DNA from: Flavobacterium turcicum
GTDB lineage: Bacteria; Bacteroidota; Bacteroidia; Flavobacteriales; Flavobacteriaceae
NCBI RefSeq assembly: GCF_011365745.1
Contig: NZ_JAAOBY010000008.1
Coordinates: 62,001 to 126,000 of the forward strand
DNA length: 64,000 bases
Direction: 5' to 3'
Both the position numbers and the translations under genes were made by a program. This document shows positions 10,844 to 62,466 of the stretch, piece after piece (positions within the stretch are counted from its first letter, which is position 1; the number at the start of each line of letters is the position of its first letter). A model generated the notes under the pieces. The model was given only the letters and a program-made list of their open reading frames with translations, was not told the DNA's origin and did no database searches.

Positions 10844-13800
10844 TTATTCTTTAACGTTAACTCTAATTCCTTTGGTATGGCTAGTATATTCTGGAGCGTA
10901 CATGCTTTGAATGGTCGAAATTCCGTTCGAAAAATCGCCTTTGTTGTTCACGCGAACAGTATATTCCAAAACATATGTTCCTTTGTCAATCTTATCAAAA
11001 AAGAAATGGGTTGCCGCATCTTTGATACTTTGATAAAATCCTAATCCACCTTTGTATTGATAGGCAGAAAGCACATCGGTAGGCTCAAAACAAGACGCTC
11101 GCATGTCTTTTAGATGTACAAATTCCATAGGCTCTTTGGCGTTTATTATCAATCGAACGGTAACCAAATCACCAATTTGTAGCGGATTTGCAGCAGTGAT
11201 TTTGTTTAATTGTTTGCCATTTGCCGTATCCGTGTTGAGATACAATTCTTTTAATGCAGTGAGGTTTTGATTATCGCTGCTTTTAATTTGATCTAAATCT
11301 TCAAAATATTGCCAATAAATTCCGCCATAACCTGGAACATTTGATTTGTTTTGAATGCTGATATTAGCCATTTCTTTTTTGATTTCAGCTGCTTTCCAAG
11401 TAAGTTTGAGGTATCCTGTTTCGGCTTCTTTCTCTGTTTCGGAGCGTTTTTTGGTCAGTATTTTTTCGTCTCCAATTTTAATGACGGTATTGTCTTTGAC
11501 ACTCAGCCAATCTGTGCCTTGCATGAGTAATGCATAGATTGCCTCAGTAGTTGATTTTGTGGTTGGCCAATTTTTTGTTTGTTTGTTTTTGAGCAACCAA
11601 ACTTTCATGTCATCAACGGCTTTTTTATCGTTTGTCACTTCTGTGAAAACTTCAATGAGCAAAGCTTGTGTTTCAATAGGAGCTTGATACCAATACCAAC
11701 CTGATTTGTTGGCAATCCAATACATACCCCAATCTTCATTGTTCGAGGCTGTTTCCCTTAAGCTTTCGATTATCTTTTTGGCACTTTCTTGTTGTCCAAA
11801 ACGATGTAATGTTAGTGCAGCTAAGCCCTTTTCATACAAAGAATAAGTCAGCCATTCTTTTTTAACAGCATCAAGATATTTGTTGATGGTTTTAGTCAGC
11901 ATTTCCGGAGTTGGATTTGTTTTGAGGAAAAAACTTCTGCTGTACAAATAATGTAATTCAGTGTATGGGTTGCGCCAAATCAAAGCGGAATTATTAGCAG
12001 CGTTATTATTATGGCTTTGCAAAAACTGTTGGTCTAAGTACGGTACCGCTGTCTTTGTAATTGTGCTGATACTTGCAGTAGTTTTTTCGTCAGAACTTAA
12101 TTTTTGTAAGTGACCTAAACCAGCTACAATATGTCTGGTAATGTATTCATTGGCATCGCTGCCATCAAACCAAGCAAATCCACCTGATGATTTTTGTTTT
12201 TGTTTTAATTTGTCAAATGTTGCTTCCTGAGATCCTTTCATTTTTTCTAAATCAAAAAGAGCGGCTAGTCTTTGCTTTTTTTCTTCTTCAGAAGTAGCAT
12301 CACGGAGCCAAGGTGTTTCGGCCAAAATAATGGATTTGAGAGTTTCATTAGTTTCTAAGGGACTGTTTTTAGTTCCCTTTTGACGCCAATTATCAAAAAC
12401 TTGCGCAATTTTTGGGTTGCTGTTGATAATGTTAGTGGCTAGTGCGTTAGCATAAAAACGAGCGAAGGTTTGTTCAGCACATTCGTGCTCGTATTCCATC
12501 AAATAGGGCAATGATTGTATGGCAAGCCAAGTAGGATTTGAAGTATATTCAAAGGTGAATTGATGGTTTTTTAAAGTAGATGAAGAGTTGTTTTTTAAGT
12601 TCGTAAAGGTATATTCTTTCTTAGAATTGTTTCTAACCCAAACCGGAATACTCTCTGTGACAAGCATGTTGTTTGTTAAAACGGGTACAATATTTTCCTC
12701 GCCATCTGAAAAATCTCCTGCTTTAGCCAAAATTTTATACTGTACACCTTGCAAACCTTCTGGAATGTAGATTTTCCAGCTTACCGTGGTATTACCAAAG
12801 GGAGCAATTGTAAAGTTTTTGGTCGGTTTACTATTTGCCATTTTTAAATCAATTGGCTGCATATTTGTGGCATCATACAATTGAAAAATTGCAATTCCAA
12901 CTTTTGGATCTTTTGTGATGTTGGCAATTTTGGCAGTAATGCTGATACTGTCTTTTTCTCTAAAAAAACGAGGTAGGTTAGGGGTTACCATTAACTCTTT
13001 TTGAGTAACAACTGTTTTTTCTAAAAAGCCAGAAACGGCTTCTTTATTGTGCGCCATCAAACGAAGTTTCCAAGCCGTTAGGGCTTCAGGTGAAGTAAAT
13101 GAAAATTGTACTTTGCCCTTGGCATCACTTTGCAAATGCGGATAAAAAAAGGCAGTTTCAGATAAGTTAGTTCTTGCTTTTACTTGAGTTAAAGCTTGCA
13201 TTGCATTTTTTGTGGTAATTATGATGACTCCGTTTTTGCCCTTGTCGCCGTATAAGGCAGTGGCTTTAGTATCCTTCAGGACTTCAACATTTAGTATGTC
13301 AGCTGATGGAATATCCTTAATTTGTTCCATGCTCATAGGTACACCATCAACGATACAAAGCGCATTTAACTGTGCCGAGGTATTAGCCGCTCCGCGAATG
13401 ATGATTTTTTCGGATTTAGTCATTGTCGGCTTGACAAACTGAATTTGGTCTACTTTTGTAGCAGGTGGATATACCACTTCTTGAAGTGCTCCTGCGGTAC
13501 CCGTGACCCTAGGTTCTACAGTTAGTACTGCATCAGGGTCTCCTTTAATTATTTCACTTCCAAGTTTTTTATCTTTTATTTCATAGTAAGACGGTCCGTT
13601 TCCATAAGTTGATTCATTAAAATTAAAGCCAAACCATTTTAGGCGAGTAACTTCATTTAGAAGATTTAAGGGATTGTAATCTAAATTTAAATTCTGAAAA
13701 TAGATATCCGTATTCTCAAATCCTAAACCTGTTTTGAAGTAGATATTATTTCTACTAAAGTTATTAAAATTTAATGCCTCCCATGGAGCTTTGGTAAACT

Positions 13801-16800
13801 GGTCTAAAGAGCTGTCATACATTGAAGCCAAAATTTCAGCTTCTTGAAGAGTGTTTGATGATTTGATTTGAAAAGACCAATTTTCATTACTTCCTGGCTC
13901 AATTTTATTTCTAAAACTTTCTACTGAAAATTCTATTTTAGGTTCCTCAGACTTTAATTCTACTTCTAGTTGTTCTATAAAATATTGGTTCTCAAATACA
14001 CTTTGGAAACCAACTTTGAGTGACTTTTCGAAATCCTTTTGAAGAGGAATAGTAACTGTAGCTTGATGGTTTTTTAAAACAATGTTTTGTTCGTAAAAAG
14101 TACCGTTTTTATAATTGGCACTTGTAAGAATATGTAATGAGTCAACTACTGAGTGGATCTCAATGGTTGCAAAACCATCGTTTTTTGGGTCTTTGTTGAT
14201 TTGCTTAATTGTAAATAACTTATTGGGGCTATACTTGTCTTTGCTTTGTATAATTGAGAAATCAGAAATAGTTTCGATAGGGTTTTCAAAACTATCTTTT
14301 GCCGAAAATACAACCTTATAGTTTCCAGATTGATAATTAGTTATGAAATCGAGTGCGATATTTTTGTCCTTTTCAGTATCTATTTTTTTTGAAAACAGTA
14401 AAATTTCAGTTGGTTTTTTTGATGTTTCAGAATGGTTAATTTCGTAAGGAAATAATTTTTCAAATTCGGAATCCGAAATAGTAGCAATTTCGGGTTTAGT
14501 GAAAACTCTAGATTTGAATTTATTTTCAAACGGACTTACTTAATACAATTTAATTGCTCCTTTTGTAGCTTTAAATTCTCCATTTAAATTTGTGCTACTC
14601 AGGTTGATTTCATTTTTGTTTTTCGTTTCAATCCTGTTTGCTATAAATGCATTCAATACCAAATCATGGTAACCTACTTTAATCGTGGTAACGGCAGTAT
14701 GTGTTTCTCCATTAATATCAGTAACGCTTGCGTTTATTCTATAATTAAAAACAGGAAGCTGTTCCTTACTCGCATTTTTAGACGGCTTTGCAGTGAAATC
14801 AATCACAAATTTGCCTGAAGCATCTGTTTTAGTTTCGCTACTAATTAAAGTTTCTTCTGGCTCATAACTATAATAATTCCTGAAAGAATTCGTGAAGCGA
14901 GTTATGGTGTAGGTTACTTTGGCATCCGAAATAGTGCTTCCTGCAAATGCTTTGGCAGTGCCTTTTACTGTAACCTGTTGATTAACTTGAAAGCTTTCTT
15001 TTTTAGGTTCGAAAGTAACTTCAAACTTTGGTCGTTTGTATTCTTCTACTCTAAAATAAGTAGATGAGTTTTCTAAAGTAACATTTTCTAACAAAGGTTG
15101 TTCATCTCCTGTAATGTCAGAAAACATATTTTTGGTGTAAGCTGCAGGGTGTTTTGCTTGTATTCTAAAACTTCCTGTCAAGCCTGTTTTTGGTAAAATA
15201 AATTCACCAGAAAAAGAACCAAACTCATTTGTGGAAACCTCAATATCTTTAAAGTTGTTGTCATTAGAGTCTTGAATGGTAACTAGAAAAGAAGTATTGG
15301 GAACAACATTCGATTTGTTATTCTTTTTTTGAATAGCAATTCCTTTGAAATAAACCGTCTGTCCTGGTCTGTAAATAGCCCGGTCCAGGTAAAATTCAAC
15401 TTTTCTAACAATTTTTTTATCTTCTATTTTTTTATAATCATAACTGTTGTTTAAATATCCCTTTTGGATAAATAGGGTGTCATTTTTGGTTGAGAATTGT
15501 ATATAACTATTAGCATAATTGTCTTTTTCTTTTGGGTGAAAAGCGAGTCCATTTTTATCTGTTTTTAGGGTTTTATTTAACAATTTGATAGTGACATTTT
15601 CTAATGGTGTTCCTGTTTTTCTATCTAAAACTGTGTAATATTCCGTGTTATCTTTTGTATTTGCTAAGACTGAAATATTTGAAACTGTTATGGTTTCAAA
15701 CCCAAATCCTTTTTTCTCTTTAGAGTTACTATCACTTTCGAAATAGACTAGATAATTACCTGTTTCTAATTGTGGTAAAAGTACCTCGGTGGTGTACTCA
15801 AAATAATCTTTTTTGTCAATGAGTTCGTAGCTTTTTGTTATAAAAGGTTTATTATTAGCTACAATGTAGTTTGCCAAACTATCACTTTTTTGGTATTTTT
15901 GGTAAAATTCTTCCTTTTTGTTATTACTTATTTTAAAAAAAGAAACCTTTAAATTATTGGTGTTTCTATATCGAATGAATGCTCTTGTGTTTTCTTTATT
16001 GTAAATGTTTTGTTGGAGTTCAACTTGAATGGTTTTTGACAGTAGTTTTTCTTTGGCTTGTTGAGCCAGTTTGAAGGTGTTTGAACTATCATTAGTTTTT
16101 AAAACGCTTTCTAATTCGGCTAAAGCTTTATTATTATAATCAGGATGTACCTCTTTTGAAGCTAGATTTGCATAAGTTTTGGCTTTTTCTAATTGAATTT
16201 TTTGTGATTGAATATTCTCACTTGGTAGTGTTTCAAGGTTAACTAATGCAGTCAGTAAGTTTTCATCAGATTTTACAAGATAGTTAGAACAAAATAGTAC
16301 ACGTTCTAATTTGTTTTCAATAGTTGGTGCATCAGCTTCTAGCTTTTGATACAAGGAAAGCACCTTTTTTAAATTTTCATCTTCGATAAAATTAATGTTT
16401 AATTTTAAAAAGGCATCAGTGTTTCCTAATAAATTATTTTTATAAGCTTCAAATTGTTTCGCATCAAACTGCCATTCATATATTTTTGTTTGGTAAAAAG
16501 TAATGTTCTCTTTTAGCAGGTACTCAAACAGATTTTCTTTTTTTAATTTCTCTAAATTAAAAAAATTAAAAACCGCTTCATAATTGGTTAGAGGAATTGC
16601 TTTTAAAACGGACTCGTTTTCTAATGTTTTTTCGAATATTTTGTCAATGTCTTCTGAAGTATTGTAATTATTAACTGTTGCACTATCAATTAGATTTACG
16701 CTATTTTCATTTTCGACTGAGGATGAATCCACAACGGCTACCCCAAAGTTTTCATATTCTTCGTTATAATCGCTCAAACACTTTGCATAAACTAAATTCA

Positions 16801-17098
16801 AAATTGCTTTTGTAGGTATGCTGGCGGTCTTAATTTCAGTTTTAAGATTATGAATGATTTGACTTTTTGCATCTTCTTCAAGAACCTGCAGGTATTTTGA
16901 TTTGTAAAAAAAGCATTTGATAATTTGCTCCTCGTTCTTATTTTGAACTGCTTTTTTATAAATTTTATCAACGAGTACAGAGGCTGATTTAATTTTACCC
17001 TGATTTTCGTTTGCAAGAACTTCTTGCCATTTTTTGTCAAATTGTTGCGATTGCATTACTGTGCAGGTTAAAAGCAAGAATAAAAGAATACCTCTCAT
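10844..17098 (-). pseudogene. Alpha-2-macroglobulin-like protein with TonB-plug-like domain, interrupted by one in-frame stop
   Basis: This is one reading frame of about 2,084 codons broken only by a TAA at 14540-14542 (codon 853). Translation on both sides is continuous in the same frame, with no frameshift. The 5' part (852 residues) has a type I signal peptide (MRGILLFLLLTCTVMQSQ), a long N-terminal region, an MG2-type segment near residue 565 (FYLDRAIYRPGQTVYFKG), and FRVEEYKRPKFEV near 685. After the stop the match continues with VSPFENKFKSRVFTKPEI. It goes on through a plug-like domain at about 1195-1305 (IIIRGAANTS, CIVDGVPMS, ILNVEVLKDTKATALYGDKG, GVIIITTK), the A2M core, and an intact thioester motif CAEQ at codons 1540-1543 (12470-12481). 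Relatives are periplasmic or surface-exposed protease traps. As written, only the first 40 percent would be made, without the thioester. The stop could be a real nonsense mutation, a base-call error, or a read-through site. Confidence 0.85.
14540..14542 (-). other. In-frame TAA interrupting the macroglobulin gene
   Basis: The reading-strand context is ATT AAA TTG TAT TAA GTA AGT CCG. One base change (for example AAA, CAA or GAA to TAA) explains it. Codons on both sides encode family-like sequence in the same frame, and no start codon or ribosome-binding region that could restart the 3' half is evident. Confidence 0.85.
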
Positions 17099-33177: not shown

Positions 33178-34674
33178 TTATTTCCAGAATGGATTATCAT
33201 TGAATGCTGATGCAGCTGTTTGTGCAGGTACATTTTGAGAGTTTCTTGAAATCTCAGAAGAAGGATATAAAAGTCTTACTGGTCTCTTTCCTCCACCTTC
33301 TGCGGGTTGTGGTAAGTTTGCAGGGAAACCAGTTCTTGTTTTCTCAATCCATAATTCAATAGAAGATGTACCGTTTAATGCAACCCATTTTTGGGTAATA
33401 ATAGCTTGAACTTTGTTTGGCGATGAATCCCAAGAAACATTAGGGATATCTTGTGCTAAATAAGTTGTTGCAGCAGTAGTTGCATTAGGAACAGCTAATC
33501 TTGTAAATGAAGCACGTACTGCTTGTTCGTATTTCGCTTTTGCTGCAGCATCGCCACCAGCGATATAACCTCGAGCAATTGCTTCAGCTTGAAGTAATAA
33601 ACTTTCTGGTAACGACATAATTGTTTGGTTTTGTGCCGCACTTACCAACAAGCCAGGTCCTACTTTCGCAAGGTCTTTTGATGTGAATCCAGTTCCAGGT
33701 AGAGTAGTTGATTGAGGTGCACCTTTAAAAGCGCCTCCAGTTGTAGCTCCAGCATAAAGTCTAGATAATCTTGGATCATTCGTAGTAGTTAAGTATCCAA
33801 CAGTATAGTCAGATGCTACAGTAAAATCTCCTCTGTCAGTTTCTAAACCTGTTATCGGTCTTCTGAAGTATCCGAAAAATGGACTTTGTTTGTTAGTGTC
33901 ATCTACATAAATTGGATTGGTGAAGATATCACTAGTGATGTATCCAGCCCCATTGGCATCAATTGTTGCAATTTGTGCACGAATGTAAGCATCTTGGTTG
34001 GTGTTGCTTAAACGTACTAACATTCTTAACTTGATAGTATTTGCAAATTGTGCCCATTTTGTCATATCACCGCCGTTCATAATGTCCTTTGCAAGAGGGT
34101 TTTCAGCATTTGCAGGCAAATTTAGTGATAGTGTCGCAGCTGCAGTTAATTCGTCAATAACAGCTTTGTAGACAGTTTGTGCATCATCGTACTTTGGCGT
34201 TATTAAATTAAGTCTTTGATTTGCCTCTGAATAAGGCACATTTCCGTAAAGGTCAACTAAGTATTGGTATTGGTAACCTTTCAAAATAGTTGCAATAGCT
34301 TTGTATGCGCTGTAATCAATATTTGAGCCTTCGTATTTTTGTACGTATGTTAAGTCTCTGAAAATAGATCCGTAAGATGTTTCAAAAATCGTAGCGTAAA
34401 ATCCAGAATTTACCGTGTATCTAGCGAACTCTTGATTTGACGACCAGTTAGATGGGGTAGCCCAGTTGTATGCGAAATATTGACCTAAGTAGGTCATTTC
34501 GGTTGCATTCAATCTTGCAAGTGTATTTTGTGCTGCCGGTAAGGTTAACCCTGGGTTTGAGTTATCTGGATTATTTGGATTGGTGTCTACATCTAAATAA
34601 TCACTGCAACTTGCAGTCATCACGGCTGCTAATGTTAGCAGTGTACATGATTTAATGATTTTTACTATGTTCAT
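33178..34674 (-). CDS. SusD/RagB-family surface lipoprotein (second locus)
   Basis: A 498-residue SusD-like lipoprotein. The lipobox is TASC, followed by SDYLDVDTNPNNPDNSNPG, a very typical SusD opening. Helical repeats include YQYLVDLYGNVPYSEA and WAQFANTIKLRMLVRL, matching the other SusD in the window (LVDYFGDIPYSEA, WIKLANTLKLKIYL). The C-terminal part has IELWIEKTRTGFPANLPQP. It forms the lid for the SusC channel encoded 11 bases upstream. The ligand is unknown. Confidence 0.93.
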   Translation of the reverse strand: MNIVKIIKSCTLLTLAAVMTASCSDYLDVDTNPNNPDNSNPGLTLPAAQNTLARLNATEMTYLGQYFAYNWATPSNWSSNQEFARYTVNSGFYATIFETSYGSIFRDLTYVQKYEGSNIDYSAYKAIATILKGYQYQYLVDLYGNVPYSEANQRLNLITPKYDDAQTVYKAVIDELTAAATLSLNLPANAENPLAKDIMNGGDMTKWAQFANTIKLRMLVRLSNTNQDAYIRAQIATIDANGAGYITSDIFTNPIYVDDTNKQSPFFGYFRRPITGLETDRGDFTVASDYTVGYLTTTNDPRLSRLYAGATTGGAFKGAPQSTTLPGTGFTSKDLAKVGPGLLVSAAQNQTIMSLPESLLLQAEAIARGYIAGGDAAAKAKYEQAVRASFTRLAVPNATTAATTYLAQDIPNVSWDSSPNKVQAIITQKWVALNGTSSIELWIEKTRTGFPANLPQPAEGGGKRPVRLLYPSSEISRNSQNVPAQTAASAFNDNPFWK

Positions 34675-34685
34675 TTTTTAATGTA

Positions 34686-37600
34686 TTAAAAAGTTAAGTT
34701 TAGGTTTACCCCAAATTGTCTTGTTGGTGGAGTTTGTGCTTGAGTACCAACTCCTACTGCATTTCCTGTAGTGAAGTTAAATTCAGGGTCTGTAGTTGTA
34801 TTTTCTTTTGGTCTTAAGGTAAGTAAGTTTCTACCAAAGAAACCAATGCTCAATGCATCGATACCTGCTTTTTTAATGAAATCAGAATTGAAGTCATAGT
34901 TCAAAGAAACCTCTCTTAGTTTTAGTGTAGTTGCATCAACAACATAGTTTTCTTTTACAGTGTTGTATTCGTCCCAGAAAGCATTTCCTCCGCTTGCAGT
35001 CAAACGGTTGTTGTTTGCAACAAATCCACCATTTCCATCAGAGTAAGATGAGTTAGGGAATACGAAAGGTTGTCTTCCTGCTGAGGCGCTGTGCTCTGTT
35101 AATCCAGTAAATTCCAAGGCATCATTTAGATTGTTGTAAAATACGTGTCCTGTTCTGTAGTCAGCAACAGCATACAAGGTCCAGTTTTTATAGGTAAGCG
35201 TAGTGTTTAAGCCTACAATGTATTTAGGAGCAGTTTGCCCTTGTGTTCTGTTTTGAGAATCTTTGATTGGGTTACCGTTGTCGCCAACAATTACTCTTCC
35301 TTCAGAATCTCTCAAGTATGAACTAGTTTTGATTAAAGGATAAGGTTGTCCTACTTTTGCAACAATTTCTGCGTCAGCAAAACCTCCGATACTTACTTCT
35401 TCAACTCCGTCAAACAAAGATTTTACTTCAGATTTAATTCCAGAGTAATTTACTCCCATTTTCCAACCAAAATCAGCTGTCTTTATGATTGTTCCTTTTA
35501 AATCAAGTTCTAAACCTCTGTTTTCAATTTCACCGATGTTAGTCAAGATGCTTGAAGCTCCAGATGCTAATGAAGTGTTGATTGGAACAATTTGGTCAGT
35601 CGTGTTAGTTTGGTAAATGTTACCATTGAAAATTAATTTGTTATTGAATAATCCCATTTCAATACCGAATTCTTTTGATAAAGTAAATTCAGGGCTTAAG
35701 TTTTGATCAGGATCTCTTGCGCCCTGAGAAAGTCCAGTTGCTCCTGTGAAAGGAAATCCTGGAGGTGTGGTGAAAATGTTTTTTGTAGCGTAAGGTTGCG
35801 CGTCGTTACCACTCTTTGTAACGTTCAAAGTTGCTTTTAAGTTATCAATTCCTTTTTCGCTTTTAATTCCAGGGAATGCCTCAGATACAAGGAATGATAA
35901 ACCAGCACCAGGATAAAAGAAAGATCTATTTTGAGTTGGTAAAGAAGAAGACCAATCATTTCTAGCTGTAGCTGTAAGGAATAAATACTCTTTATAGCCT
36001 AATGTTAATTCTGAATAAACACCTTGTCTTCTGAATAAAAATTTATCTTCACCTCCTTGTAATTCGCCCGATCTTGTTCCAACATTGTAAAAATCAGGAA
36101 CTGATAGATTAGATCCACCAACATTTACACTTGCTGACGACGTCAATCTTGTGTTTGCACCTGCTGTTACTTTAAGGTTGAAGTCTTCGCTTAAGTTTTT
36201 GTCGAACTTTAAGATGATATCGTTGTTTAAACGCTGACCCAATCCAATTCTTGAAGCGGTACTAGCTCCATAAGGATCCATTGAAGCGTATGTGTTTGCT
36301 AATTCGAACTCGTAAGTAAATGCTCCGAATTGTCTTTTGAAATCTTCTGAAAATGAAGTGTATCCTGTATTCACAGATAATGTTAAATAGTCTGTAAATT
36401 TGTAATCAATGTTCGAAAGTACATTGAACTCAGTGTAATCGTTTTTCTCTCTTTGAGTGTCAAGAATGAAGTAAGGGTTTTCATAGAATCTGTAAAAAGA
36501 TACCTCGTTTCTAGTAAATTGCCCTGTTCTCCAGTTTTTCATTTGGTCCAAAGGAATGTGTAATGGCGTATTTAATACGTTCCAGTATACTGGTCTTCCT
36601 TGTCTTCCTGCTGTTTCACTCACTTGGTTTGAGTGTGCTCTAAAGAAACTTACGTTTCCACCAACAGTTAATTTGTTGTATTTTCTGCTACCTTTTAAAC
36701 GTACGTTTGTTCTGTTGTACGTGTCGTTTGGTACAGTTCCTGTTGTATTTGTTTGGTCAATAGAGAATAAAAAGTCACTATTTTCGTCACCACCTTTAAA
36801 TGTGATACCGTGTCTAGCAGAAACTCCTGTGTCAAAAAAGTTACGGATATTGTTTTTTACAGGTGTAAAAGGAACTTGCCATACTGATCCGTCATCTAAT
36901 GTTTCACTTGCGTCAACTAGTCTTCCGTCAAAACGAGGTCCCCAGTTTACGTTTTCCAATGGGTAAAGTGTTCCGTCAGGGAATCCACCAACTCCAAATT
37001 CGCTTTGTACTTTTGGTAAGTAAGCTACTTGCTCCAACTGTAATGAACTGTTGTAGTTGATAGAAAGTTTACCACTTCCTTTTTTAGTTGTGATGATCAT
37101 AACCCCGTTTGCAGCTTCAGCACCATACAATGCAGATGCGTTAGCACCTTTCAGGATTGTTACGTTGTCAATGTCATTTGGGTTAATTCTGTCAAGTACT
37201 CCTCTTGCAGATGGGAATCCGTCAATAACGATCAATGCTTCGTTGTTACCTAACAAAGATCTGTTACCTCTAAGTACAACTCTTGTACTTGGATTTACAC
37301 CATTGTTTACAACGTTAACTTGCAAACCAGAAACTTTACCAGATAATGCTGTAGCAACGTTTACGGCTCTTGTTTTAGTTAAATCTTCACTTTTGATGTT
37401 TTCTACCGCGTAAGAAAGTTCTTTCGGTTTTCTTTTGATACCCATTGCGGTAACAATTACACCTTCAAGTTCAACTGAGTCATCTTTCAGTGTAATTTTT
37501 AAATTTGTTGAACTAGCAGCTAGCTCTTGGGTTTTCATCCCAACGTAGCTAAATACTAATACTTGACTTGCACTTGCTTTGATAGTAAATTTTCCATCAA

Positions 37601-37769
37601 AATCAGTTTGTGTTCCAGATTTTGTTCCTTTAACCAATACGCTTACTCCTGGTATAGGTAAGCCTGCATTGTCAGAGACAACTCCTGAAACCGCTCTCTC
37701 TTGCGCAAAAGTTATCTGCGCCATTAGTGCTAATAAAAGCACTAAGATTCCATTGAACTTTAGTTTCAT
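34686..37769 (-). CDS. SusC/RagA-family TonB-linked outer membrane protein (second locus)
   Basis: A 1,027-residue TonB-dependent transporter. It has a signal peptide to about residue 22 (TFAQ), a carboxypeptidase-regulatory-like domain (about 25-95), a plug (about 115-230, with VVLRGNRSLLG, IVIDGFPSARG, VTILKGANASALYGAEAANG) and a barrel ending NLNLTF. The first 100 residues are strongly similar to the other SusC, including MKLKFNG and ERAVSG. It starts its own locus of three genes, with its promoter block in the 85-base gap after the Omp85-like gene. The transported molecule is not predictable; no degrading enzyme is nearby. Confidence 0.95.
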   Translation of the reverse strand: MKLKFNGILVLLLALMAQITFAQERAVSGVVSDNAGLPIPGVSVLVKGTKSGTQTDFDGKFTIKASASQVLVFSYVGMKTQELAASSTNLKITLKDDSVELEGVIVTAMGIKRKPKELSYAVENIKSEDLTKTRAVNVATALSGKVSGLQVNVVNNGVNPSTRVVLRGNRSLLGNNEALIVIDGFPSARGVLDRINPNDIDNVTILKGANASALYGAEAANGVMIITTKKGSGKLSINYNSSLQLEQVAYLPKVQSEFGVGGFPDGTLYPLENVNWGPRFDGRLVDASETLDDGSVWQVPFTPVKNNIRNFFDTGVSARHGITFKGGDENSDFLFSIDQTNTTGTVPNDTYNRTNVRLKGSRKYNKLTVGGNVSFFRAHSNQVSETAGRQGRPVYWNVLNTPLHIPLDQMKNWRTGQFTRNEVSFYRFYENPYFILDTQREKNDYTEFNVLSNIDYKFTDYLTLSVNTGYTSFSEDFKRQFGAFTYEFELANTYASMDPYGASTASRIGLGQRLNNDIILKFDKNLSEDFNLKVTAGANTRLTSSASVNVGGSNLSVPDFYNVGTRSGELQGGEDKFLFRRQGVYSELTLGYKEYLFLTATARNDWSSSLPTQNRSFFYPGAGLSFLVSEAFPGIKSEKGIDNLKATLNVTKSGNDAQPYATKNIFTTPPGFPFTGATGLSQGARDPDQNLSPEFTLSKEFGIEMGLFNNKLIFNGNIYQTNTTDQIVPINTSLASGASSILTNIGEIENRGLELDLKGTIIKTADFGWKMGVNYSGIKSEVKSLFDGVEEVSIGGFADAEIVAKVGQPYPLIKTSSYLRDSEGRVIVGDNGNPIKDSQNRTQGQTAPKYIVGLNTTLTYKNWTLYAVADYRTGHVFYNNLNDALEFTGLTEHSASAGRQPFVFPNSSYSDGNGGFVANNNRLTASGGNAFWDEYNTVKENYVVDATTLKLREVSLNYDFNSDFIKKAGIDALSIGFFGRNLLTLRPKENTTTDPEFNFTTGNAVGVGTQAQTPPTRQFGVNLNLTF

Positions 37770-37793
37770 TTTTTAATATTTTGAATTAGTCTC

Positions 37794-37827
37794 GCAAAAC
37801 TCTTAATAATTTCTTAACATTCCTAAT
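37794..37827 (-). promoter_or_regulatory. Conserved upstream block of the second Sus locus
   Basis: The partner of the block at 31803-31836: 31 of 34 positions identical and again 25 bases before the SusC ATG. Minus-strand reading: TTAGGAA, GTTAA, TTAAGAGTTTTGC. The downstream leader is also similar between loci. No TAnnTTTG box is present. Confidence 0.6.
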
Positions 37828-37854
37828 AATAGTAAAACCATTTAGTGTTAAAAT

Positions 37855-39540
37855 TTAAAATTTAACATTGTAGCTCAAGTGAATTATGCTGTTTTGAAAA
37901 TTGAATTTTTCTTCTAACGTTGCTCCGTTTGCAAACGCTAGTCTTAAAAGTCCGTTTGATGTTTGAAGTCCGATCCCGAAACCAGTGCCTAGTCTTGATG
38001 TAGTGTTGTTGCTTGACAATGAGAAGGATTCGTCTTTTGCGAGGCTATAGTCTAAAATACTGTGAAAGTACAATTGAGTGTTTAGGGTGGTTCTGAATTC
38101 AGTTTGTAGCACAGTTGCCATTGATGCTTGTAGACTATTTTCGTTAAACCCTCTTAAACTGTTAAATCCGCCAAAACGGTATAATTCATTTTGTAAAATA
38201 TTTTCGCTTCGTAATAAATAGCTATTTGATTGTAAAATGATATTATTTTTTTGAGATAGTGTTATGTTGTAGGTCCAGTTGATGCTTGTCGAAAATTGTT
38301 TTTGTGTTTCTGGGTTCGATGTGTTATTTAAGTCTCTCTTTCCTAGGCCGAAATTTACTGATAGTTGATTCGGTTCTGTATTGTTTGGTCGTTTAGTAGT
38401 GTCTTTGTAGTTATATCCGATAGTTAAAAAGGAGTTTGAATAGTCTTTTATAGTTGCGCTGTTTATGTTTTGGATGTCACTTGATGTTGTGGTTTGGTAT
38501 CCCACTGTTATTTTTTGTTGTGATTTTATTTCATAGGTTGCAGCGATCATTGTTTTGGTATTTTGAAACGTGCTGTCTTGTCTAAATAAGTTTAACTCTG
38601 TTTTTAGACCGATTGGAGAGTTGAAAATAAATGGTAATTCAACGCTTGCGTCAAATGTTTTTTGATCTTGACCGTCGCTTTTCCAATTGATTTGAATTTT
38701 TTCGCCTCTTTTAAGTATGTTTTGTAATTCGATGTTAGCATATCCGTTGAGTTGAATTTTTTGAGCATCGTTATTTCGAAATCCGATAAAGCCATCGAAA
38801 GTGTTTGCGTTTTGTTTTTCTAGGTAGACATACACTGCAGTTGAATCGGTTGTAAGTAGTACTTCTGGGTATTTGCTGTTTTGTGCAAATCCTAATGTTT
38901 CAAATTGGTTGTATATGTTGGTTAATGTTTCTCTATTGTAGGTTTTGTTTAAATATTTCTTTTTGATTTGAGTCAAGAGATTTTTTGGTAGTTGCAGATT
39001 GTTTGCTTTTTCTACAGTGATATTCGTTAATTTTCTACTCGAGCTTTTGTAAATTTCAAGTTCAGCTTGCAGATAATTTTTCTTTCGTTCGATGTTCTTA
39101 AGTCTTATATTTGCAAGTGCATTGCCTTTTTGCTCAAAAGTTGTAAGTATGCTATTTAAAAACAAGTCTAAGTTTTCGTAGGCTAGAAGGTGTGATTTTT
39201 TAGTTTTGCTAAAAGGAGGTATTTCAAAATTAGTGGGTGCAAATATGGTGATGTATTCGATTTTATCCCCCAAATAGATAGTGCTATTGTATACACTGTC
39301 ATTTATCTTCACTGCTGTTTGAACATTGCTATCTAAAAATCCTTTTTTGATTAATTGCTGGTTGATCGTGTTAACTCTTTTTTCGATGGACTGAAGGTTT
39401 GTATGTTTCTTCAGGCCGAGTAAAGAGTCTGGTAGTATTTTCTTTTCGGATGTCGCTGTTTTGAATTGTAGATAAAGTGGTTGCGCACTCATTGTGGTTG
39501 TACAAAGGAGAAAAAGCAGCAGCAATAAATTATTTTTCAA
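37855..39540 (-). CDS. Omp85/BamA-TamA-like outer membrane barrel protein
   Basis: About 561 residues from the TTG at 39540. A signal peptide (KNNLLLLLFLLCTTTMSAQ) is followed by about 230 residues with POTRA-like segments (for example TYNRETLTNIYNQFETLGFA) and then a C-terminal barrel. The barrel carries the Omp85 loop motif as FGGFNSLRGFNE (RGF) and ends in YNVKF. It is shorter than BamA, so it is more likely an accessory Omp85 protein. The frame is open further upstream without any ATG. The TTG at 39597 falls inside a -7 box, so translation must start later; the TTG at 39540 gives a sensible signal peptide. It lies upstream of the second SusC gene on the same strand. Confidence 0.8.
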   Translation of the reverse strand: MKNNLLLLLFLLCTTTMSAQPLYLQFKTATSEKKILPDSLLGLKKHTNLQSIEKRVNTINQQLIKKGFLDSNVQTAVKINDSVYNSTIYLGDKIEYITIFAPTNFEIPPFSKTKKSHLLAYENLDLFLNSILTTFEQKGNALANIRLKNIERKKNYLQAELEIYKSSSRKLTNITVEKANNLQLPKNLLTQIKKKYLNKTYNRETLTNIYNQFETLGFAQNSKYPEVLLTTDSTAVYVYLEKQNANTFDGFIGFRNNDAQKIQLNGYANIELQNILKRGEKIQINWKSDGQDQKTFDASVELPFIFNSPIGLKTELNLFRQDSTFQNTKTMIAATYEIKSQQKITVGYQTTTSSDIQNINSATIKDYSNSFLTIGYNYKDTTKRPNNTEPNQLSVNFGLGKRDLNNTSNPETQKQFSTSINWTYNITLSQKNNIILQSNSYLLRSENILQNELYRFGGFNSLRGFNENSLQASMATVLQTEFRTTLNTQLYFHSILDYSLAKDESFSLSSNNTTSRLGTGFGIGLQTSNGLLRLAFANGATLEEKFNFQNSIIHLSYNVKF

Positions 39541-61551: not shown

Positions 61552-62466
61552 ATGTTAAAGTTAAATATCAAAACTGAAACTTCGCGGCTTCGAGCGGTAG
61601 TTTTAGGATCTGCAGTGAGTAACGGCCCAACTCCGAAAGCAGCCGAAGCTTATGATCCCAAATCATTAGAACATATTTTAGCTGGAACCTATCCTATCGA
61701 AGCAGATATGGTTCAAGAAATGAATGCATTTGATGCAGTTTTAAAAAAATATGAAGTTGAAGTTTATAGGCCAGAATGTATTGAAAACTACAATCAAATT
61801 TTTACCAGAGATATCGGGTTTGTAATTGATGATGTTTTTGTAAAGTCGAATATTCTACCCGATCGCGAACGCGAATTAGACGCCATAAATTATATCATTG
61901 ACCAAATGGATCCGCTAAAAGTAGTGCGTCCTCCCGAAGAAGTGCATATTGAGGGTGGTGATGTAATGCTTTGGAATGATTACATTTTTATCGGGACATA
62001 CAAAGGAAGTGACTATGCAGATTATATTACTGCTCGCACCAATGGTTTAGGTGTTCAGTTTATTGAGGATTTGTTTCCTTATAAAAAAGTGAAAGATTTT
62101 GATTTAGTTAAATCAAAAATAGAAGCTAGAGATAATGCACTACATCTTGATTGCTGTTTTCAACCTGTTGGGAAAGACAAAGGGATTATCTACAAAAATG
62201 GTTTCAGAGAAGAAGCAGACTATGTTTTTTTGGTTGATCTTTTTGGAAAAGAAAATCTTTTTCACATCACAAGAGACGAAATGTACCACATGAATTCAAA
62301 TATTTTTTCAATTGATGAAAAAGTAGTAGTTTCTGAACGTAATTTTACACGATTAAACAATTGGCTGCGTTCACATGATTTTATCGTTGAAGAAATTCCA
62401 TATGCTGAAATTGCCAAACAAGAAGGACTATTACGTTGTTCAACTTTGCCTCTAATTAGAGAATAA
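61552..62466 (+). CDS. Dimethylarginine dimethylaminohydrolase / amidinotransferase-family protein
   Basis: A 304-residue pentein-fold enzyme acting on guanidino groups. The catalytic set is visible: FTRDIGF near the N-terminal third, EGGD with Glu134, His198 in ALHLDC, and the nucleophile Cys296 in LLRCSTLPL. This fits DDAH or a related arginine deiminase/amidinotransferase that hydrolyses or transfers from arginine or methylarginine. The exact substrate is not certain. It is followed closely by a second pentein enzyme of the CtlX type, possibly in one transcript. Confidence 0.82.
   Translation: MLKLNIKTETSRLRAVVLGSAVSNGPTPKAAEAYDPKSLEHILAGTYPIEADMVQEMNAFDAVLKKYEVEVYRPECIENYNQIFTRDIGFVIDDVFVKSNILPDRERELDAINYIIDQMDPLKVVRPPEEVHIEGGDVMLWNDYIFIGTYKGSDYADYITARTNGLGVQFIEDLFPYKKVKDFDLVKSKIEARDNALHLDCCFQPVGKDKGIIYKNGFREEADYVFLVDLFGKENLFHITRDEMYHMNSNIFSIDEKVVVSERNFTRLNNWLRSHDFIVEEIPYAEIAKQEGLLRCSTLPLIRE

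Follow-up and report, generated by a model that had tools for sequence, protein, structure and literature searches.

A single in-frame stop codon, probably a recent nonsense mutation, in a mosaic macroglobulin gene of Flavobacterium turcicum

Introduction

A long reading frame of Flavobacterium turcicum that encodes a large macroglobulin is interrupted by one stop codon, which raises the question of whether the gene has been inactivated, whether its protein is still made in some other form, or whether the stop codon is an error in the sequence. The task ascribed to bacterial macroglobulins is the trapping of foreign proteases. In PMC4007534 large extracellular alpha-2-macroglobulins are counted with the large accessory proteins that Bacteroidetes have, and what that paper discusses is the loss of such proteins in insect endosymbionts, not the present gene.

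The DNA analysed, called the window below, was a stretch of 64,000 nucleotides (positions 62,001 to 126,000 of contig NZ_JAAOBY010000008.1, assembly GCF_011365745.1). A first-pass annotation, made from the letters of the window, had reported the split gene and had listed recent nonsense mutation, base error, phase variation by reversion and programmed read-through as possible causes. In the comparisons G000 denotes the F. turcicum genome and G129 (L091) that of its sister F. erciyesense F-328.

The interrupted reading frame

Re-reading of the open reading frames confirmed that the minus-strand frame from 17098 to 10844 (2,084 codons) is open except for one internal TAA, at codon 853. The assignment of both sides to one family in the first-pass annotation was borne out by Pfam, MG2 being found 5' of the stop codon and Plug, A2M and bMG10 3' of it, and the 3' part was found, as had been described, to carry an intact thioester motif and a plug-like domain (Table 1). 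By eye, a hydrophobic signal-like stretch was present at the N-terminus of the 5' open frame. The locus is one orthologous gene for a probably exported Flavobacterium thioester (CXEQ) macroglobulin, in which the plug sits between the bait-region-like and A2M domains. Its neighbours encode Mpo1-like, metallophosphoesterase and glycosyltransferase proteins, and no near match to the gene was obtained when a plasmid collection was searched.

Table 1. Features of the interrupted gene and of related loci (positions are those of the window unless preceded by a locus label)
Feature	Position	Strand	Remarks
5' open frame	14540..17098	-	ATG start, 852 codons (852 aa) and TAA; N-terminal region, MG2
In-frame TAA, codon 853 of full frame	14540..14542	-	Sense codon in 29/29 aligned relatives
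Frame continued past TAA	10844..14539	-	1,231 codons and normal stop; bait-region-like part, plug, A2M domain, thioester, bMG10
MG2 (PF01835), codons 569-652	15143..15394	-	Above Pfam cut-off
Bait-region domain (PF07703), codons 967-1097	13808..14200	-	18.2 bits, below the 22.7-bit Pfam cut-off
SusC/RagA-like TonB plug (PF07715), codons 1221-1291	13226..13438	-	Pfam and PDB SusC homologues
A2M domain (PF00207), codons 1315-1398	12905..13156	-	Above Pfam cut-off
Thioester motif CAEQ, codons 1540-1543	12470..12481	-	3' of TAA
bMG10 (PF17973), codons 1954-2070	10889..11239	-	Above Pfam cut-off
Exchanged segment, about codons 73-1229	13413..~16880	-	Contains TAA; ~60% DNA identity to F. erciyesense inside, ~95% on both sides
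Tandem macroglobulin copies	L101 5919-19117; L107 4282-17382		Similar 3' modules, divergent middles
Distal canonical macroglobulin (HGCVEQ), intact, and PBP1C-like neighbour gene	L105 4384-10065 and 11102-13477		

With the Type I bacterial alpha-2-macroglobulins (E. coli ECAM, Salmonella SaA2M) the gene shares CXEQ, MG2, A2M and bMG10; for the bait region there was a weak match, below the cut-off. It differs from ECAM and SaA2M in the SusC-like plug inserted before the A2M domain, and from the Type I proteins in not adjoining PBP1C and in having no TED, bMG3, bMG5 or bMG6 above the Pfam cut-off. A sequence search of the PDB gave no direct match to bacterial A2M; SusC homologues and human A2M (E 0.054) were found. 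The plug is a likeness to the SusC/RagA TonB-linked outer membrane proteins, as is the CarboxypepD_reg-like domain that precedes it in the long forms of the gene (e.g. that of F. erciyesense), and a match to TIGR04056 covered model positions 3-220 at a score below that model's cut-off. Unlike SusC/RagA proteins, the gene has N-terminal modules only, embedded in a macroglobulin, and no barrel was found. Codons 880-1420 were modelled using AlphaFold2 (mean pLDDT 55, with blocks above 70 mainly in the bait-like and plug parts), and Foldseek searches with this low-confidence model returned complement C3/A2M-like folds and others at low TM, which lends weak support only.

The CXEQ motif was present in 43 of 48 homologous 3' rows (F. 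turcicum included; three rows duplicate others). It was absent from the 3' modules of L078, L082, L084, L097 and L103, in which the rest of the module was retained; these are possible thioester-less macroglobulin forms.

The neighbour of the distal macroglobulin encodes Transgly, Transpeptidase and BiPBP_C domains. A macroglobulin next to PBP1C is given as the Type I arrangement in a number of bacteria in a passage of PMC5764988.

The stop codon site in related genomes

A stretch of 467 codons around the TAA was matched in 49 of the 121 genomes of the genus, F. turcicum included (E < 1e-29 in 46 of the 121), and the site was aligned for the 29 best of the 48 matching relatives, 120 relatives having been searched. 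The codon opposite the TAA was aromatic in 21 of these 29 and a sense codon in the remainder, and none was split here. The first-pass annotation had named a counter-case, namely that the relatives might all have two separate genes; since all 29 are open across the site, that case fails and the locus is one split gene. The frame stretch compared was free of stops in 26 of the 29 (one was cut by a contig end), two (L004 and L022) had one stop each elsewhere in the frame, and L009 had a broken 5' part.

Among the matches listed, at least 30 short-form and at least 66 long-form copies that were contiguous, full-length and above 1,600 bits were counted by hand. Exactly one internal stop, TAA or TAG, was present in 4 of these 96 copies, those of G000, G105 and G131 (short form) and G054 (long form), at positions that correspond to codons 853, 1072, 1929 and 1145 of the F. 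turcicum gene. Two of the three other genomes, G105 and G131, are metagenome-assembled. Beyond the 96 copies, two frame changes were found in G096 and one each in G288 and G059, and the fragmented genome G149 had stops within a partial match. Broader searches gave matches in 398 of 398 and in 299 of 299 genomes; these were rejected as a measure of the presence of the gene, the weak matches being probably TonB/SusC plug proteins.

The distal macroglobulin was used as a control. Its 104 main rows, of which a few were partial, contained no stops; a frame break was found in one genome (G156), and stops in one small second piece in G149. With the F. turcicum gene left out, single stops numbered 3 in 95 copies among the matches listed as against 0 in 104 for the distal paralogue (p = 0.11), and lesions of any kind 6 in 98 among the matches listed as against 1 in 104 (p = 0.06). 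The split gene may thus be lost more often than the distal paralogue, these figures being suggestive only.

Age of the stop codon

The last 852 codons of the frame were compared with the intact gene of F. erciyesense and gave dS 0.184, dN 0.023 and dN/dS 0.125 (46 nonsynonymous and 87 synonymous changes). Among 42 other ORFs of 150 aa or longer dN/dS ranged from 0 to 0.144 and only two exceeded 0.125; the 3' module evolves faster than most of its neighbours, so that the test for constraint has less contrast here than in a typical gene.

Changes downstream of the TAA were polarised by the other rows. To the F. turcicum branch were assigned 15 nonsynonymous and 21 synonymous changes, as against 15 and 20 to the branch of the intact F. 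erciyesense gene, and 14 and 37 were assigned to neither. Had this half of the gene been neutral since the split, about 186 changes would be expected on the branch. In simulations, neutrality over 10% of the branch gave counts as even as these in about 5% of runs, and over 20% in 0.1%. The even amino-acid counts therefore indicate a lesion younger than roughly 10% of the divergence of the sisters. The first-pass annotation had called the event recent, and the polarised substitutions, which show no loss of constraint on the F. turcicum branch 3' of the TAA, agree with it. The absence of relaxed constraint among these nonsynonymous changes would nevertheless also follow from a gene that still functions; three readings of the TAA accord with the counts, namely a recent origin, an error, or continued production of the full protein.

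Consequence of the stop codon

The explanation preferred here, with a probability of about 0.7, is a single recent nonsense mutation by which the gene was freshly inactivated, with no time to decay, in a strain for which it looks dispensable. Translation would end at the TAA before the bait-like domain, the plug, the A2M domain, the thioester and the C-terminal domains. In the known bacterial macroglobulins, according to passages of PMC4498604 and PMC5764988, cutting of the bait region by a protease exposes the thioester, by which the protease is captured. In the present gene the TAA precedes the bait-like domain and all that follows it, so that by analogy the 852-residue product should have no activity as a trap of the thioester kind. 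The first in-frame starts after the TAA are codons 1090 (TTG) and 1093 (ATG), so that the 3' half would have no plausible start with a signal peptide and a rescued C-terminal half would be expected to stay intracellular. The suggestion in the first-pass annotation that the event was not inactivating is unlikely on this account.

The gene looks dispensable because it is patchy in the genus, because independent lesions occur in some genomes, and because F. turcicum has an intact canonical macroglobulin. In its single stop, intact orthologues and freedom from decay it resembles recent bacterial nonsense pseudogenes; unlike the typical case it is strongly mosaic. As one genome of the species was compared, the TAA may be a colony-level mutation. 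The stop itself is an ordinary recent lesion, and matters little beyond correct annotation.

A base-call or assembly error, with the real gene intact, has a minor but real chance of being the cause, and would agree with the lack of decay of any kind beside the TAA. Against it, of the 44 ORFs of 150 aa or longer in 60 kb of the sister genome, 42 were complete and without a stop in the window; of the remaining two, one was cut by the window end and only the split gene was interrupted. The assembly (3.40 Mb in 23 contigs, 99.95% completeness) also carries the gene mid-way along a 167 kb contig, and inspection by eye showed no long homopolymer or repeat unit at the stop codon.

It is improbable that the lesion reflects on/off switching, or selection under which an exposed protein is often lost. 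In favour of this reading, six other genomes have independent lesions (a single stop in three, frame changes in the other three), as against the one frame break among the rows of the distal paralogue. These lesions are few, however, some are in metagenome-assembled genomes, and their excess is not significant when the F. turcicum gene is left out. Plain substitutions are not known to switch at a high rate, and the phase variation proposed earlier lacks the repeat unit or long run that was looked for at the site.

Read-through of the stop codon, programmed or by a suppressor tRNA, with production of the full-length protein, would explain why the frame past the TAA is open and constrained, and is very improbable nonetheless. 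The single stops of four genomes lie at four different codons, and the relatives have a sense codon at the site. A UAA with G as the next base is not known to be leaky. Transfer RNA genes were sought among 333 first-look candidates, of which 150 were scored; the 43 Rfam tRNA matches obtained were covered by 42 stretches run through ARAGORN, and no UUA anticodon was found among the genes that it named in these stretches, the weakest match (C9:14-77) not being called. Reassignment or suppression of UAA was rejected on these grounds, and the programmed read-through that had been entertained at first is not supported.

The making of two proteins, one an N-terminal fragment that is exported and the other a C-terminal half with a start of its own, is the least credible reading: a 995-aa 3' ORF does begin at a TTG at 13831, but the available starts lie 237 and 240 codons beyond the TAA, the ATG is the nearly invariant Met of a conserved SMYDSSLDQ stretch, the C-terminal half has no signal peptide, the four promoter-like matches were no excess over the mean of 4.9 in shuffled sequences, and no aligned relative is split here, for which reasons an internal restart was rejected.

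Exchange of the middle segment

Whatever the cause of the stop codon, for which a fresh nonsense mutation is preferred, the gene around it has a mosaic history. Positions 5115-63998 of the window (about 59 kb) aligned to F. erciyesense in two long blocks at 95.5% and 94.8% identity, and the only break was the exchanged segment inside the macroglobulin gene. The first-pass annotation does not mention this exchange, which a second genome is needed to reveal. Protein identity was 47% (46.8%) in this segment and 94.8% in the 3' module, and Obg and Mur ligase beside the gene were 99.7% and 99.3% identical. Among 990 pairs of gene copies the F. turcicum/F. erciyesense pair had the largest gap between middle and 3' module. 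Pairs with 3' modules at least 85% identical had middle identities from about 45% to 97%, a spread that fits replacement and not only a faster rate.

The pair L071/L072 was a reverse mosaic, with 97.5% identity in the middle and 88.4% in the 3' module.

The 3' tree joined F. turcicum and F. erciyesense as sisters (100/100), with L092 and G131 adjoining them (97/93). In the tree of the middle segment F. turcicum paired with G105 (100/100) in a group of ten rows (100/99) that included L092 and the short form of G131, and F. erciyesense lay elsewhere, on a long branch beside the long form of G131 (93/90). Given this conflict the change was probably on the F. erciyesense side, which would leave the TAA in the older version, although the long branches make this unsure. 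A sharp break in identity within collinear DNA and conflicting middle and 3' trees, both found here, are marks of segment exchange by homologous recombination. The best match to the middle of the F. erciyesense gene among 45 rows was 54%, and no second copy of the gene was seen in either G000 or G129. The linker also differs, being CarboxypepD_reg and plug in the long form and plug only in the short form of F. turcicum; the 3' edge of the exchange lies near codon 1229, inside the plug.

Two macroglobulin copies in a row were found at this locus in G139 and G323. In the G139 pair identity was 90-98% at the 5' end (with 200 bp upstream counted in), mostly 80-96% across the 3' module, and 54-79% in the part that lies between; the two 3' modules paired in the tree (92/90) but the middles did not. 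This suggests either that gene conversion has held the ends alike or that the copies share their ends and one received a divergent middle. The copies of G323 were 80-92% identical in the 3' module and only 70-72% at the 5' end, which tells against a general retention of like 5' ends. The pattern seen in F. turcicum and F. erciyesense would result either if each had lost a different one of two tandem copies or if a foreign middle had been imported by way of homologous ends.

Exchange of the N-terminal/bait module seems to be the way in which this locus evolves. We tentatively propose, as a possibility that we do not favour strongly, a chromosomal module-swapping macroglobulin in which the extreme 5' end and the thioester/C-terminal module, kept alike between sister species and between tandem copies, would act as recombination arms and wholesale swaps of the divergent MG/bait/plug part would change the target range in one step, stop codons being another outcome of the same fluctuating selection. 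If true, bacteria would have, in a recognition half that is swapped beside a reactive half that is kept, a counterpart to immune genes that diversify antigens or baits. No macroglobulin with a SusC-like plug, and no swapping of MG/bait/plug modules, was met in the papers searched, all from the open-licence part of PubMed Central, which is weak evidence that the arrangement is undescribed.

Elsewhere in the window, at 33178-39492, three neighbouring ORFs had dS of 0.40-0.61 to F. erciyesense, where about 0.2 is usual, and perhaps these were also exchanged.
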